Source of the DNA: an uncultured Spirochaetaceae bacterium
Lineage (GTDB): Bacteria; Spirochaetota; Spirochaetia; Sphaerochaetales; Sphaerochaetaceae
Reading direction: 5' to 3'
Length of the DNA stretch: 64,000 bases
Assembly (NCBI GenBank): GCA_944389275.1
Contig: CALXLT010000033.1
Coordinates: 1-64,000 of the forward strand
A program made the translations under genes and the position numbers. The notes beneath the pieces are model-generated. The model saw nothing but the letters and a program-made list of their open reading frames with translations. It searched no databases and was not told the origin of the DNA. Positions 1 to 5,710 of this stretch are shown in pieces (position 1 is the stretch's first letter; the number at the start of each line of letters is the position of its first letter).

Positions 1-53
1 CCAATATGCTGCAGCCCAGTTGGAGACGGGGCATAGCGAACGCGAACTTCCAT
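1..53 (-). CDS. gltX: Glutamyl-tRNA synthetase, N-terminal fragment
   Basis: Only the first 17 codons lie in the window; the gene runs off the left edge. The residues read MEVRVRYAPSPTGLQHI, which is the start of a class I Glu-tRNA synthetase with the HIGH-type ATP-binding signature (APSPTG..HIG). An AAGGAG Shine-Dalgarno sits 6 bases before the ATG. A weak promoter (GATAAT at 84-89, TTGTTG at 105-110, 15-base spacer) is possible. The enzyme charges tRNA-Glu in the cytoplasm. A GlnRS is unlikely but cannot be excluded from 17 residues. Confidence 0.85.
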   Translation of the reverse strand, partial: MEVRVRYAPSPTGLQHI

Positions 54-356: not shown

Positions 357-1193
357 TCACGAAAACCACTCAAGCACTGCCTGCACAGCCTTTTCCTCCC
401 CATCCTTGTCCTTGTCATAGAACGGGAAATGAGTGCACTCGCTTATCTTTATGGTCTTATGCTCTGCAGGTATTGTCCTGTCAAGGATATTCGCTGGCTC
501 CGGACCTACGACAAGGTCCTCGCCACCTACGATGATCAGAGTCGGCACGGCTAAGCTCTTCGCGGCTTTTCCAGCCTCATACATCAGGCGAAGAAGCTCG
601 TAGCTCTGCCTTGTATAGTTCCATGACCAGTATTCCTTGCCGAGGTACGCGTCATCCGCCGGGGCATCCTCATAGTAAAGGACATATGACGGATCGGATT
701 GCCAAGGCTTTGGCATTTTCTTCTTGAATACGGAAGCTATCCTGATCATGATGCTCGGCGCTTTCTCAGCGACAGCGGGAGCGGCAAGGACGATCCTATC
801 GAAACGGACGCTTTGCGATGCAAGGATGACAAGAGCTGTTCCCAGCGAGTGGCCAAGGACATAGAGCGTCTTATACCTCGCTCTCAGGTCCCTCGCGGCA
901 TTGAGGACAAGTCCAAGCCAGTCCTTACCCGTGGATCTTCCGAAATCCTCGCCTGTCGTCCCGCATCCGGGAAGACGGGGCGCGTAGACATCGAAGCCTC
1001 TCTCATAAAGGTCGCGGGCGGGACGTACCAGCTCCCCTGGGTATCCTGCATAGCCATGGATGAGAAGCACCGCCTTATCTGTCTTCTCCTTATGGGCAAG
1101 GGTGAATGGACGCCCTGCCTTGCATGGAGCATTCTTATCCTGATAGACCCCTTCATACCAGGATAGCGGGACTGAGTATCTGAACACGATCAC
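357..1193 (-). CDS. Alpha/beta-fold serine hydrolase (esterase/lysophospholipase-like)
   Basis: The 278-residue protein has an alpha/beta-hydrolase layout: oxyanion-region HGYAG at about 46-50, nucleophile elbow GHSLG at 114-118 (Ser116), an acid candidate in VGGEDLV, and a late His in SECTHFPF. No signal peptide is seen, so it is probably cytoplasmic. It resembles carboxylesterase/monoacylglycerol-lipase-like enzymes, but the substrate cannot be read from sequence. Its ATG overlaps the stop of the upstream LuxR gene by 4 bases, so the two are translationally coupled. It is the last gene of the AAA-RloB-LuxR operon. Confidence 0.85.
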   Translation of the reverse strand: MIVFRYSVPLSWYEGVYQDKNAPCKAGRPFTLAHKEKTDKAVLLIHGYAGYPGELVRPARDLYERGFDVYAPRLPGCGTTGEDFGRSTGKDWLGLVLNAARDLRARYKTLYVLGHSLGTALVILASQSVRFDRIVLAAPAVAEKAPSIMIRIASVFKKKMPKPWQSDPSYVLYYEDAPADDAYLGKEYWSWNYTRQSYELLRLMYEAGKAAKSLAVPTLIIVGGEDLVVGPEPANILDRTIPAEHKTIKISECTHFPFYDKDKDGEEKAVQAVLEWFS

Positions 1194-2089
1194 CAGGACG
1201 CCTCCTGCAGCAGGTTCAGCAGATCTATCCTCGAGCGGACCCCGGTCTTGGAGAATATGTTCGCGATATGGTTATTCACGGTATTCACCGAGATGTTCAG
1301 GTTATAGGCGATCTCCTTGTTGGTAAGCCCGTTCTTTATCTGGAGGATCACCTCGAACTCCCTCTCGGTTATATGGAACTCGCTCTGTATATCCTCGAAG
1401 GAGATCCCTTTCTTCCCCTCGGACTGCTCGAGCTGCGACTCAAGGCGCGCGATGGCGATGAAGAGGAATACAAGGATCGCGATCGTGTACGATAACGACA
1501 CCAATGATATCGAGATGCCGCGAAGGGACGGGAAGAGCATCGAGGAGACAGCGACAGGCAGCATCGCGAATGAGATGATTATCATCGTGAGGCACATGGT
1601 CCTGATGGACTTGTCCGCGATGGTCTTCCATTGGGATATCATGACGATGATGCAATAAAGGACCACAAGCGTCCATATCACATACTGCAGGATCGAGCTT
1701 ACCGAGGCCTTCGTCACGATCCATACAAGCGAATCGGCCAGATAGAGGATCCCGGCTATGAACGCCAAGGACTTCTCTCCCTTTCCTGTCGGGCGAGCCA
1801 CCACCCAGTTGCAGAAGAAAGGTATCATGCCGAGTATGAATGTCGAGTCAAGCACCAGCAGGACTTCCCATATAAGATGGAGGACAGCCTGCGCCGTGCC
1901 ATCGAACGCAAGATATGAATACTGATCGAGCGCGAAGGAAACCACTGCCCCAAGGAGCGTGGCGGTAAAGACAACGCAGGTGCGCGACCACGTGTATCGC
2001 GCCCTGCGGTTCCATACGATAGCCAATGCCAGGTCCATGCTGACGATGGCAAGGGCTATAAGGCTTAACAGAAGAGGGACAGCCTCCAT
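1190..2089 (-). CDS. Membrane-bound LuxR-family regulator (7 TM + HTH)
   Basis: The 299-residue protein has about seven hydrophobic segments in residues 4-213 followed by a short charged linker and a LuxR-type HTH at about 240-295 (ITEREFEVI, GLTNKEIAYNL, NTVNNHIANIF). No phospho-receiver domain is present, so the membrane part presumably senses the signal directly; this is inference. The ATG lies 3 bases after the RloB stop, and the SD (AAGG) is inside the RloB 3' end, so it is in the same operon. The hydrolase gene follows with a 4-base overlap. Confidence 0.85.
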   Translation of the reverse strand: MEAVPLLLSLIALAIVSMDLALAIVWNRRARYTWSRTCVVFTATLLGAVVSFALDQYSYLAFDGTAQAVLHLIWEVLLVLDSTFILGMIPFFCNWVVARPTGKGEKSLAFIAGILYLADSLVWIVTKASVSSILQYVIWTLVVLYCIIVMISQWKTIADKSIRTMCLTMIIISFAMLPVAVSSMLFPSLRGISISLVSLSYTIAILVFLFIAIARLESQLEQSEGKKGISFEDIQSEFHITEREFEVILQIKNGLTNKEIAYNLNISVNTVNNHIANIFSKTGVRSRIDLLNLLQEASW

Positions 2090-2092
2090 CTA

Positions 2093-2728
2093 CTACCTTC
2101 GCACCTTCTGGTTATGGGACATGTCAGCGGTGCCGCAGATAGCCGTCACATCCTCATTGAGGAGCGGCATGGCGGTAGCCTCAAGCCCCGTAGCGGCCTT
2201 TGCCACCACGTTGTAGTTGCGTGCGTTGATATCCGCACTCGCGTGGCGAGGGAATAGACGGATATGGGTGTTCAGGCCCTTCGTGAGGAAATACTCAGGG
2301 GTCATCTCGAATCCTGGTAGAGCTTCCCTGAGCTTAGCCTCAAGCGGCGATATATCCGCGACGTACGAAGTCGGCGCGCCGAGATGGAAGATGAACCAGA
2401 GATCGAACTTAGGATTGATCCAGCAGAGCTTGACCTTCTTCTTCTCCGTATACTCCTCCATCATCGACTTGACCTCGTCGACGCTGGTGTTCACATCATC
2501 GAATCCGAAGAGTGCCCATGCGCTGTCGAACTTGCCATGGTTCCTCTCCTTCGCCGTGTAGTCGATAAGTCCCTTGAGATCCTTTCCCTCAGGAGCCTTG
2601 AGGACCGTGAGATTGACGAAGCGGCAGTCCTTCCTCATCTGGGAGAAGTACAGGGCCTCAGCCTCCGTCGCACATACCAGAAGCAGTGTCTGCTTCGGCG
2701 CCGTTATGTTCTTCCTGCGCTTTATCAT
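2093..2728 (-). CDS. RloB-like TOPRIM-type protein (AbiLii-like)
   Basis: The 211-residue protein matches the RloB pattern: a conserved Glu in CATEAEAL (E22), an Asp pair in FGFDDVN (D77-D78), and the family block NPKFDLWFIFHL at 105-116 (NPxFExW..LH in relatives). These fit a TOPRIM-like metal-dependent nuclease core. I chose the ATG at 2726-2728 because GGAGAGGAGG lies upstream and it abuts the ATPase stop; a longer start at 2824 would overlap the ATPase gene. RloB proteins pair with AAA ATPases in abortive-infection AbiL and in type I restriction islands. The gene ends in tandem TAG codons. Confidence 0.8.
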   Translation of the reverse strand: MIKRRKNITAPKQTLLLVCATEAEALYFSQMRKDCRFVNLTVLKAPEGKDLKGLIDYTAKERNHGKFDSAWALFGFDDVNTSVDEVKSMMEEYTEKKKVKLCWINPKFDLWFIFHLGAPTSYVADISPLEAKLREALPGFEMTPEYFLTKGLNTHIRLFPRHASADINARNYNVVAKAATGLEATAMPLLNEDVTAICGTADMSHNQKVRR

Positions 2729-2729
2729 C

Positions 2730-4013
2730 TTATGCCTCCTCTCCTTCAGTCTCTGCCTTCTCAGGCTCCACAGGCGTGCCATCATGCACGAAATAGAACT
2801 CGCTCGTGATCGGCAGCGAACCATAGACTCCCTGCATGTAGCGCTGCGATGTAGGCACCTTGCCGCGCGCGCCCTTGAAGTCGGAAAGCGAGTAGTAGAC
2901 AGTCGAGCTCTCCTGGTCCTTCTGCGCGAACCACACCGCGTCGCGGCGGAGCAGGCCTTCCCTGAGAAGGGATGGGTTGCAGTCGACTACGAGCATCTGG
3001 CTCTCCTGGTCGCAGTTCTCGAAGATCTCGACAAGGTGGCAGAGGATGTCCGGATGCAGAAGCTGTCCGAAATCATCGATGACAAGGGTCTTCTCGGTGA
3101 TGAATGCCTCGAAGAACGCGAAGCCTATGACCGTGAGGCGCCTGAGCGAGAGGGACTCGCCCGCGAATACGTTGGCATAGCCTTCAGCCTTCTTGTCATT
3201 GACATAGATATGGGTGAACCTGAGGTGGTCCTCGCCATTCTCGTTCGTCTTGACCTCGACCCTGTTTATGTCCGTGATATCAAGGGCCCAGAGATAGTTG
3301 AGGATCTGCTCGCCCCAGCCTGGATGGGCCTTGAGCATATCGCAGGCATACTGCTCAGCCTTCGTGGAAACACCCATAGGAAGGATGTGGAGCTTCTTCT
3401 CGAACCATGTATAGAGCTCGAGCGATGTCTGTCCGCCCTTCCTTGCCGATCCCGCCAGGAATGTCCTGTTCTCAGGAAGCTTCGCCGCCTGCCTCTTCTT
3501 CTCGCCCCTGTAGAGCTTGCCGAAGCGGTAGGAATAGAGCCCGTCCTCCCCGAGAAGGCGCTCGAACATGAGCTTCTTGGAGTTGTTGATTATATAGTAG
3601 AGGGACTCCTCGTAGATCTTCTCCTTGTTGGCCTTGAGGGTATAGCGGGCTATCGTCGTCGGCTTCTCATCCGTGCCCTCTCCCTTATCAAGGAGGACCT
3701 CGATGGATATCGTAGCGGGCGTCGCCTTGTCTATACCGTACGCGAACACGGTTCCGGTGAGCGCTCCCTGGAGCGGATTCTCCGGGCCATCAGAGGCCAT
3801 GACTATCCTCTTGAGGACCTCGAGGGCCCTTACGAATGAGCTCTTGCCGGCTCCATTCGGTCCGATTATGGCACTTGTCTTGATGACCTTCAGGTGATCA
3901 TTGACCTCAACGAGCTTCGATGCCGGAAGCCTTGAATCCTTTACCGCCTGGAAGCTGATGGTCTGAGGTGACTTTACGGACTTGAAGTTCGCAATAGTCA
4001 TGTTTAGCAGCAT
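2730..4013 (-). CDS. AAA-family ATPase, partner of RloB (AbiLi/RloA-like)
   Basis: The 427-residue protein starts LLNMTIANFKSVK, the typical opening of SMC-like AAA15/AAA21 ATPases. Walker A is GPNGAGKS at 51-58, and a Walker B-like LVIDDFGQLLHPDIL lies near residue 310, with an ABC-type AGESLSLRRL stretch before it. The ATG at 4011-4013 is preferred because AAGGAGGAG precedes it; an in-frame ATG four codons later and one 11 codons earlier are alternatives. It is the first gene of the operon, with a strong promoter about 50 bases upstream. With RloB it resembles the AbiL defence pair. Confidence 0.85.
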   Translation of the reverse strand: MLLNMTIANFKSVKSPQTISFQAVKDSRLPASKLVEVNDHLKVIKTSAIIGPNGAGKSSFVRALEVLKRIVMASDGPENPLQGALTGTVFAYGIDKATPATISIEVLLDKGEGTDEKPTTIARYTLKANKEKIYEESLYYIINNSKKLMFERLLGEDGLYSYRFGKLYRGEKKRQAAKLPENRTFLAGSARKGGQTSLELYTWFEKKLHILPMGVSTKAEQYACDMLKAHPGWGEQILNYLWALDITDINRVEVKTNENGEDHLRFTHIYVNDKKAEGYANVFAGESLSLRRLTVIGFAFFEAFITEKTLVIDDFGQLLHPDILCHLVEIFENCDQESQMLVVDCNPSLLREGLLRRDAVWFAQKDQESSTVYYSLSDFKGARGKVPTSQRYMQGVYGSLPITSEFYFVHDGTPVEPEKAETEGEEA

Positions 4014-4061
4014 AAGCTCCTCCTTATTGATGGGCAGCGGGCCCATCTACTCTGATTCACG

Positions 4062-4090
4062 ATTATAGCAAAGCGGGGCCGATGGGGCAA
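4062..4090 (-). promoter_or_regulatory. Strong sigma-70 promoter of the AAA-RloB operon
   Basis: On the minus strand TTGCCC (4085-4090) and a perfect TATAAT (4062-4067) are spaced by 17 bases. The predicted start is near 4055, leaving a leader of about 40 bases that carries the SD. I see no obvious operator palindrome. Confidence 0.7.
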
Positions 4091-4224: not shown

Positions 4225-4256
4225 AAAAAATATTCAGAAATTACTTAATATTTTTT
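4225..4256 (-). terminator. AT-only hairpin at the end of the lipoprotein operon
   Basis: A perfect 10-base inverted repeat (AAAAAATATT / AATATTTTTT, 12-base loop) overlaps the stop codon of the 4241-4606 gene. Both strands have U-rich arms, so it could stop either direction; the stem contains no G or C, so it would be weak. Confidence 0.4.
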
Positions 4257-4606
4257 AAGTATTCCTCTATCTGCCCGGACTCATCGCATCTTACCCCCTC
4301 GCTCCACGGGCCGGAGGAGATGGCGATAAGCAAAGGCGTTCCAGGCTCCGCGAGGTGATCAGAGACCCAGAAGGCAGTGCTCTCCTTGACCTCTGAAGCA
4401 ACCTCCGAGAAGCCGGAAAGGACGATGACGGAGAAGGAGGACGAGCTTATCCAGCGCTTGAGCATCTCCATGCCCCCGCGCGCGCTCGCGCACTCCTTGG
4501 CCTCCCGGCATCTGCCGGTGGCCTTTCCCGAGAATACAAGCTCCGCGGAGCTTATGCCTGTCATATCAGGAAGGATCCCTTCCTCCACGTAGATGATCCT
4601 GGACAT
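4241..4606 (-). CDS. Uncharacterised 121-residue protein
   Basis: I do not recognise this protein. It has a short N-terminal beta-like stretch (SRIIYVEEGILPD), three Cys residues, and a hydrophobic central strand (FSVIVLSG), so a small soluble alpha/beta protein is likely; no signal peptide or membrane segment is seen. GAGGTG precedes the ATG, which lies 3 bases after the lipoprotein stop, so it is co-transcribed with the lipoprotein and the PdxA-like gene. A role linked to those genes is only a guess from position. Confidence 0.6.
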   Translation of the reverse strand: MSRIIYVEEGILPDMTGISSAELVFSGKATGRCREAKECASARGGMEMLKRWISSSSFSVIVLSGFSEVASEVKESTAFWVSDHLAEPGTPLLIAISSGPWSEGVRCDESGQIEEYLKNIK

Positions 4607-4609
4607 GTC

Positions 4610-5710
4610 TCACCTCAGAAGATAATCGTAGATCGAGATCCCCGAATCCTGAGGCTCCTCTATAGTCTCATTGCTCACGGAGAACTGGCTCAAGGCCTCA
4701 TCGTTGCGCTTACGGAGCGTCATGAGGTCATCATAGAGGCTCCTGGCATCCCTGTTGCCGGAATACGCCACGACCTCCTCGGCTATGGCTATCGCCTTGT
4801 CGAAGTCCCCCAAGGCTGCGGTAAGGAGCGCGGCATTGTACCCGGATGGCACATGACGCTCGCCCTGCCAGAGCGAGAGGAACTGGTCAAGCGATGCCCT
4901 GTACTGCCCGTCAGAGGCCCTCTTATACGCGTCCTTTGCCGCCTCAAGTTCCGGCTTGTTGTCCATGAGCGTGACGTCATAGCTTCTGGAGGTCGGCACG
5001 AACGAGCGCCTTATGCCTTCATTGAAGCCCCTTATCATGCGACGGAACATAAGATCGACGCCATCAAAGCGCGGCCAGAACGGGTCGAACACCTCGGAGC
5101 GGGTATCGGAATCGATGAACGTGCGCACGGCAATCACCCTGTCGGTATGGGTGTCCACTATGGATATCGAATAGCGGATGGAGGCCTTCTGCCTCACATA
5201 GTAGTCATACCAGTACTCCGTCCTGTATTCCTTGCGGTGCTCATCCCATACGCGCTCTGAGTTGCGCCTCGTGTAGATACGCTCCTCAATAGTCATATCC
5301 TCGATGCGCGGGATCATCACCGCATCATAGCCCATGTCCCTCAGCCTCTCGGATACCCTGTATCCCGAATTCACGATCCAGGCAGTGGACTGGGGATCGA
5401 GAAGGCTGAAGTAGCCGGTATTGGAAAGCGTTGAATAAAGCTGGTCGGTGGCATAGCTGGAGACGTCGGATGCTATGGAGGCGGAATAGGATGACCTGAC
5501 ATGCACGCTGCCCGCCATGACATCCAGCCCCGCTATCCACTGCGTTGATGGGATATATCCCCTGTACTGCACGACAGGCATAACCGCAAGGTGGCGGTAA
5601 TTCGACATGTTCACGTCAGACGGATAGAGATAGTTTATCCTCACGCTCGTCTGGCACGATGAGAATAGCAATGCAGCTGCAGCCAGGGCAGCAAGAATGA
5701 TCTTCCTCAT
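4610..5710 (-). CDS. Lipoprotein, possibly DUF6340-like
   Basis: The 366-residue protein has a lipoprotein signal (hydrophobic AALAAAALLFSS then Cys19), so it should be lipidated and anchored at a membrane. The segment LYPSDVNMSNYRHLAVMPV resembles the start of DUF6340/CsgG-neighbour lipoproteins, where a short beta-strand opens an envelope domain. The C-terminal third (about 265-335) is helical and TPR-like (YKRASDGQYRASLDQFLSL, YNAALLTAALGDFDKAIAIAEE). Its ATG overlaps the PdxA-like stop by 4 bases. The function is unknown. Confidence 0.75.
   Translation of the reverse strand: MRKIILAALAAAALLFSSCQTSVRINYLYPSDVNMSNYRHLAVMPVVQYRGYIPSTQWIAGLDVMAGSVHVRSSYSASIASDVSSYATDQLYSTLSNTGYFSLLDPQSTAWIVNSGYRVSERLRDMGYDAVMIPRIEDMTIEERIYTRRNSERVWDEHRKEYRTEYWYDYYVRQKASIRYSISIVDTHTDRVIAVRTFIDSDTRSEVFDPFWPRFDGVDLMFRRMIRGFNEGIRRSFVPTSRSYDVTLMDNKPELEAAKDAYKRASDGQYRASLDQFLSLWQGERHVPSGYNAALLTAALGDFDKAIAIAEEVVAYSGNRDARSLYDDLMTLRKRNDEALSQFSVSNETIEEPQDSGISIYDYLLR

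Follow-up and report, generated by a model that had tools for sequence, protein, structure and literature searches.

We analyzed a locus within a stretch of 64,000 nucleotides (hereafter the window; contig CALXLT010000033.1 of assembly GCA_944389275.1, positions 1 to 64,000) from an uncultured bacterium of the family Sphaerochaetaceae. Four minus-strand genes, which encode an AAA ATPase, an RloB protein, a membrane protein with a LuxR-type domain, and a serine hydrolase, are present in the window as one operon. The first two genes share a common origin with defense pairs of the abortive-infection type. They strictly co-occur, and throughout the family their catalytic residues have been replaced, with Walker A of the ATPase kept. 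The operon contains the following features.

2730..4013, minus strand: core-type AbiLi/AAA_21 ATP-binding cassette (ABC) ATPase, 427 amino acids (Pfam AAA_21, PADLOC AbiLi)
2093..2728, minus strand: core-type RloB/AbiLii TOPRIM-like protein, 211 amino acids (Pfam RloB)
1190..2089, minus strand: seven-transmembrane (7TM) protein with a C-terminal LuxR/GerE helix-turn-helix, 299 amino acids (GerE match, hydropathy)
357..1193, minus strand: alpha/beta serine hydrolase, 278 amino acids (Hydrolase_4 match, conserved triad)
4062..4090, minus strand: sigma-70-like promoter TTGCCC-17-TATAAT (sequence and upstream alignment of relatives)

The number of genes, their strand, and their three junctions are as given in a preliminary description of this DNA: 1 base separates AAA from RloB, 3 bases separate RloB from LuxR, and LuxR and the hydrolase overlap by 4 bases (GTGA). 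The promoter proposed there is also found, with TTGCCC at 4090-4085, a 17-base spacer, and TATAAT at 4067-4062. In an upstream alignment, four close relatives retain the -10 box and two retain the -35 box. Because a CpsB/CapC-like gene runs straight into the AAA gene in other genera, this promoter is specific to a sub-clade. The AAA gene had been read as starting at 4046. We place its start instead at the ATG at 4013, behind AAGGAGGAGCTT, and the alignments of relatives begin at the same Met.

The homology to AbiL and AAA-TOPRIM pairs that had been proposed is borne out by matches to Pfam (AAA_21, 2.9e-13; RloB, 8.8e-12) and to PADLOC, which labels the ATPase AbiLi (2e-59) and the RloB protein AbiLii (6e-8). 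The two downstream proteins match GerE (2.5e-16) and Hydrolase_4 (7.6e-24).

Distribution and inheritance of the AAA-RloB pair

A core-type AAA match was defined by an identity of 44% or more across the aligned part, which leaves out weaker paralogue matches of 20-36%. Such genes are found in 105 of 119 Sphaerochaetaceae genomes, and RloB is likewise found in 105 of 119. The presence of the two genes disagrees in only two genomes (G060 and G113), where in both cases genes are cut by contig ends. RloB directly follows AAA in 40 of the 40 loci read. In a sample of 296 spirochete genomes covering the phylum, 12 of the 13 family members have core AAA, and all 283 other genomes lack it; the RloB profile agrees, scoring above 270 bits inside the family and at most 92 bits outside it. 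Sphaerochaeta, Bullifex porci, and Candidatus Ornithospirochaeta are the named relatives. Searches of viral contigs, phages, and plasmids produced no core-type copies, only canonical relatives at 23-26% identity.

The pair resides in a block that is common to several genera, with local losses, and that has the order PdxA, CsgG-like lipoprotein, CobO, CpsB/CapC, AAA, RloB, LuxR, hydrolase, GltX, GlyS, and TyrS. A mobile defense island is ruled out by this constant locus, by the distribution, and by the lack of core-type copies in the viral, phage, and plasmid collections. Across 30 genomes, AAA identity correlates with that of RloB (r 0.91) and with that of GltX (r 0.84). In the AAA tree, the core proteins form one clade (support 100) separate from canonical copies of the same and other families. 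The correlation with GltX divergence, together with this single clade, rules out recent horizontal transfer. In a GltX tree that has moderate support in places and a weakly placed family root, the absence of AAA-RloB corresponds to one change, a loss in a small-genome clade next to genus g8.

The ratio of nonsynonymous to synonymous substitution rates (dN/dS) of AAA is 0.012-0.06 between close pairs, comparable to that of GltX and GlyS where measurable. It is 0.05-0.11 for RloB, 0.055-0.126 for LuxR, and 0.09-0.16 for the hydrolase, all of these ratios being approximate because dS is near saturation. A pseudogene is ruled out by these values. The AAA gene is under very strong purifying selection, and AAA-RloB is a vertically inherited, single-origin core locus of Sphaerochaetaceae in a housekeeping neighborhood.

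In one genome (G110; L072:1077-2327), an in-frame TAG breaks core AAA into two frames; this may be an assembly error, a pseudogene, or recoding. Some genomes that hold the core pair also hold canonical AbiL-like AAA-RloB pairs (L110-L116 and L118). The source genome of the window (G000, contig C5; L109:3356-5302) carries a different AAA-partner pair, in which an ordinary canonical AAA with DE and TH motifs is followed by a 194-amino-acid gene not recognizable as RloB.

The LuxR protein has seven hydrophobic segments by hydropathy, and the hydrolase has a Ser116/Asp226/His255 triad that is conserved in 33/33 sequences, so the 7TM topology and the serine named in the preliminary description both hold. 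Both genes adjoin AAA-RloB well beyond this genome, and all four genes stand together in 71 of 80 related loci. They are nonetheless separable. In genus g14, AAA-RloB lies beside gltX without LuxR and hydrolase; the hydrolase is missing from genus g8; and two of three loci read in genus g18 (L080 and L081) lack LuxR and retain the hydrolase. In g9, g13, and g19 the order is lipoprotein-LuxR-gltX, with AAA-RloB gone from between. These patterns of presence and absence across genera rule out the idea that the four genes are one obligate system, kept or lost together.

At five loci from genomes without AAA-RloB (L099, L102, L103, L104, and L105), the lipoprotein gene stands directly before the 7TM-LuxR gene, which is followed by gltX, so that both genes are cleanly absent. 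Another genome (G093; L073:5729-6551) has an extra gene of ~248 amino acids between RloB and LuxR.

Replacement of catalytic residues in both proteins

Residues were tallied in 100 core and 18 canonical AAA sequences. Walker A (GPNGAGKS) is intact in 100/100 core proteins, whereas other motifs are altered. The ABC signature reads ESLS instead of the canonical ESxG (Gly to Ser in 100/100; canonical Gly in 18/18). Walker B reads DD instead of DE (Glu to Asp in 100/100; canonical Glu in 18/18), and the H-loop reads D-C instead of T-H (His to Cys in 100/100; canonical His in 17/18, the other being Q). The Walker B Glu and the H-loop His are required for efficient ATP hydrolysis. Loss of this Glu is what marks a nucleotide site as degenerate, and at such sites ATP can be bound in the role of a conformational element (PMC7544095).

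Core AAA proteins are only 23-29% identical to canonical ones. An AlphaFold2 model of the AAA protein (predicted local distance difference test score, pLDDT, of 82) has an ABC head of the SMC/Rad50/PtuA type, with structural matches to the SMC head (Z 19.3), Rad50 (Z 19.3), and PtuA (Z 17.6). A search of the AAA sequence against solved structures produced P-loop matches and nothing else, and NCBIfam contains no family for AAA or RloB proteins of the core type.

For RloB, 103 core sequences were compared with 15 canonical ones. The position of the TOPRIM Glu is acidic in 0/103 core proteins, where it is Ala, Ser, or another non-acid, compared with Glu in 14/15 canonical proteins. The first Asp of the DxD motif is present in 15/15 canonical proteins but in only 4/103 core proteins, of which 96/103 have Gly or Ser. 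In the RloB encoded in the window, these positions are Ala20 and Gly75 when aligned to canonical RloB. Some acidic residues persist: E24, which is the second Glu of the canonical EGxxTE, is kept in 94/103 core sequences, and position 78 is Asp or Glu in 92/103. Position 77 is non-acidic in 44/103, and entire genera lack E24 or lack acids at 77/78. The older conservation is supplanted by the near-invariant new blocks YFSQMRKDCRY and CGxADxSHNQK. Of the acids that had been put forward as catalytic (E22, D77, and D78), D77 falls on a canonical acid position, as does E24, whereas E22 and D78 lie off such positions.

The AlphaFold2 model of RloB has a pLDDT of 91. Its top matches are the OLD C-terminal domains 6nk8 and 6njx (Z 6.8 and 6.7) and GajA (8tjy, Z 6.0), with unrelated folds close behind at 6.3-5.7. 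Foldseek with this model returned no match with E < 0.001, and a second comparison (VIA) ranked OLD domains first, near other folds. Searching the RloB sequence against solved structures gave nothing meaningful.

A putative cellular role for AAA-RloB

Because the Walker B Glu is lost and RloB is changed, we infer that the two proteins form a disarmed complex that binds ATP and that strong selection keeps for a cellular role. It is likely that AAA-RloB is a domesticated module of the AbiL/RloAB type, that is, an OLD-class ABC-ATPase with a TOPRIM-like partner, which has been a core cellular complex since the ancestor of Sphaerochaetaceae. Judged from sequence, the complex probably binds ATP, is non-nucleolytic, and has a cellular role; its job is probably cell maintenance rather than action against phages. 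The ATPase would still bind ATP and dimerize in the manner of an SMC, Rad50, or PtuA head, and would hydrolyze ATP slowly if at all, like the degenerate nucleotide-binding sites found in ABC exporters. If so, ATP would work as a conformational switch or clamp. Cutting by RloB through a canonical TOPRIM metal site would be lost, and RloB may be the half that docks or that binds nucleic acid or a partner. Where present, the neighboring 7TM-LuxR protein may regulate expression or hear an envelope signal.

What the complex might maintain can be suggested from its distribution. The named non-spiral spirochetes (Bullifex, Parasphaerochaeta, and Sphaerochaeta) form one clade (PMC12236494), and AAA-RloB is restricted to the family to which Bullifex and Sphaerochaeta belong. 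Cell shape or envelope, or chromosome maintenance, are therefore the first candidate processes. Tentatively, the pair, disarmed at both active sites, could form a core complex, gated by ATP and structural or regulatory in nature, whose origin coincided with that of the non-spiral family and which helps maintain cell form or the chromosome, although we consider this more specific proposal doubtful.

Like AbiL of Lactococcus (AbiLi plus AbiLii) and RloA/RloB, the core pair has the two-gene order of AAA_21 ATPase and RloB, and it matches the corresponding PADLOC profiles. It differs in being chromosomal in one family and non-mobile, and in the replacement of catalytic residues in both proteins: the canonical ES-x-G, DE, and H-loop His (0/100 each) are missing, as are the TOPRIM acids. 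The sporadic, mobile, defense-island context of AbiL and RloAB gives way to a position beside gltX and to divergence that tracks GltX. PARIS (AriA and AriB, class 4 OLD) also has an ABC-ATPase and a TOPRIM protein as separate genes. However, the AriA match (1e-10) is far below that to AbiLi (2e-59), and RloB matches AbiLii only. Moreover, AriB is described as a Toprim nuclease that is active on tRNA (PMC12409363), whereas core RloB has lost the TOPRIM acids.

In GajA (Gabija, class 2 OLD), the ATPase domain is thought to keep nucleotide binding as a regulator without hydrolysis (PMC12796447), but GajA has kept its nuclease and belongs to a mobile defense system. The degenerate sites of ABC exporters such as ABCB11 and TM287/288 likewise lack the catalytic Glu, have conserved replacements for it, and use bound ATP as a conformational element (PMC7544095). 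These exporters are transporters with one canonical partner site, whereas core AAA is soluble and is a head encoded by a single gene, so that a homodimer of it would have only degenerate sites.

Cran1, an OLD ATPase-nuclease of Sulfolobales, is also an OLD-class protein that has gone from defense to a conserved core cellular gene, but it consists of one protein, keeps every active-site residue, and has measured nuclease and ATPase activities (PMC12796447), whereas the core pair has two genes and replaced residues. Because Cran1 is a nuclease encoded by a core gene and has a role in the cell cycle (PMC12796447), AAA-RloB might, by analogy, be domesticated and yet catalytic, as a housekeeping nuclease whose RloB metal site has moved (E24 with D77/D78) and whose AAA protein has altered ATP hydrolysis. 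The frequent retention of E24 and of an acid at position 78 fits this alternative. We nevertheless regard it as unlikely, given the complete lack of an acid at the TOPRIM Glu position, the Gly or Ser that usually replaces the first Asp of DxD, the many non-acidic residues at 77, and the genera that lack E24 or the 77/78 acids altogether.

A defense role for AAA-RloB is unlikely on the basis of these sequence comparisons. The preliminary description had suggested a defense-like module with a lipase or esterase as a second effector; a defense module in which RloB is a nuclease effector and the hydrolase a second one is not supported, in view of the vertical core locus, the lack of mobile core copies, the replaced catalytic residues, and the separability of LuxR and hydrolase. 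As frequent yet separable neighbors, the latter two do not support a four-part defense system. The nearest proposal to that description is a chromosomally fixed phage defense based on non-nuclease signaling, with AAA-RloB as sensor and LuxR, the hydrolase, or both as output. AbiL homology, the AbiL label that PADLOC would assign, and the adjacency of the four genes in most related loci speak for it. It is still quite improbable in view of housekeeping-like conservation (AAA dN/dS down to 0.012), the constant location, and the lack of core copies in phages, plasmids, and viral contigs. In addition, some genera with AAA-RloB lack LuxR and some lack the hydrolase, and LuxR is also found where the pair is missing. 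Finally, the canonical pairs in some of the same genomes might suggest that the inactive pair is a decoy or antidote that mixes with or mimics canonical AbiL/RloAB or phage anti-defense proteins and so restrains active systems, but this is very improbable because the canonical partners are sporadic and only 20-29% identical, whereas the core pair is nearly universal and is present even where canonical RloB was not found, as in the source genome.

Several points weigh against domestication into a disarmed cellular complex. The loss of activity is read from residues, and an Asp in place of the Walker B Glu can leave some hydrolysis; indeed, Walker B mutations in Cran1 were without effect on ATPase activity in vitro (PMC12796447). 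Because E24 and Asp/Glu78 remain in most sequences, RloB may have a rearranged metal site, though this does not hold for every genus. The match of RloB to a TOPRIM-like fold is middling (Z 6.8) and level with unrelated Rossmann-like folds. The loss of AAA-RloB from one small-genome sub-clade means that the pair is not universally essential. The tie to non-spiral shape is a single evolutionary coincidence, and so is only a lead to cell shape. In the literature searched, outside of which most subscription journals lie, no description of a core AAA-RloB pair was found, nor anything linking Sphaerochaeta with LuxR; the papers on Sphaerochaeta and abortive infection were unrelated.

If AAA-RloB is indeed domesticated, it would be a clear case in which a pair of the abortive-infection type, with both active sites rewritten, became a conserved cellular complex, to be set beside Cran1, whose enzyme stayed active. 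It would offer a handle on non-cutting roles of OLD-class ATPase/TOPRIM complexes, and it marks one spirochete family, some members of which have lost the spiral shape. In addition, profile-based defense catalogues (PADLOC AbiL) would be counting a domesticated core gene as phage defense. Because PADLOC PDLC02335 and PDLC02337 score the core pair far above chance, AbiL counts in spirochete genomes are probably inflated.

Genes flanking the operon

The operon is flanked in the window by the following features.

4241..4606, minus strand: CobO/BtuR-derived remnant of 121 amino acids, an upstream neighbor outside the system (clusters with CobO; P-loop region absent)
4610..5710, minus strand: CsgG-like lipoprotein, a neighbor marking the conserved block (weak CsgG match in the L076 homologue; conserved position)
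1..52, minus strand: beginning of gltX (glutamyl-tRNA synthetase), truncated at the contig end and forming the downstream border of the block (MEVRVRYAPSPTGLQHIG is identical to gltX in L076)

The 121-amino-acid protein clusters with CobO/BtuR cob(I)alamin adenosyltransferase and lacks the P-loop half. At the same place, Sphaerochaeta has a full CobO (Pfam CobA_CobO_BtuR, 1.5e-54 in L076). The remnant is still kept in several Candidatus Ornithospirochaeta genomes, with a dN/dS of ~0.18-0.22 where measurable, and because of this retention its role, too, may have changed.

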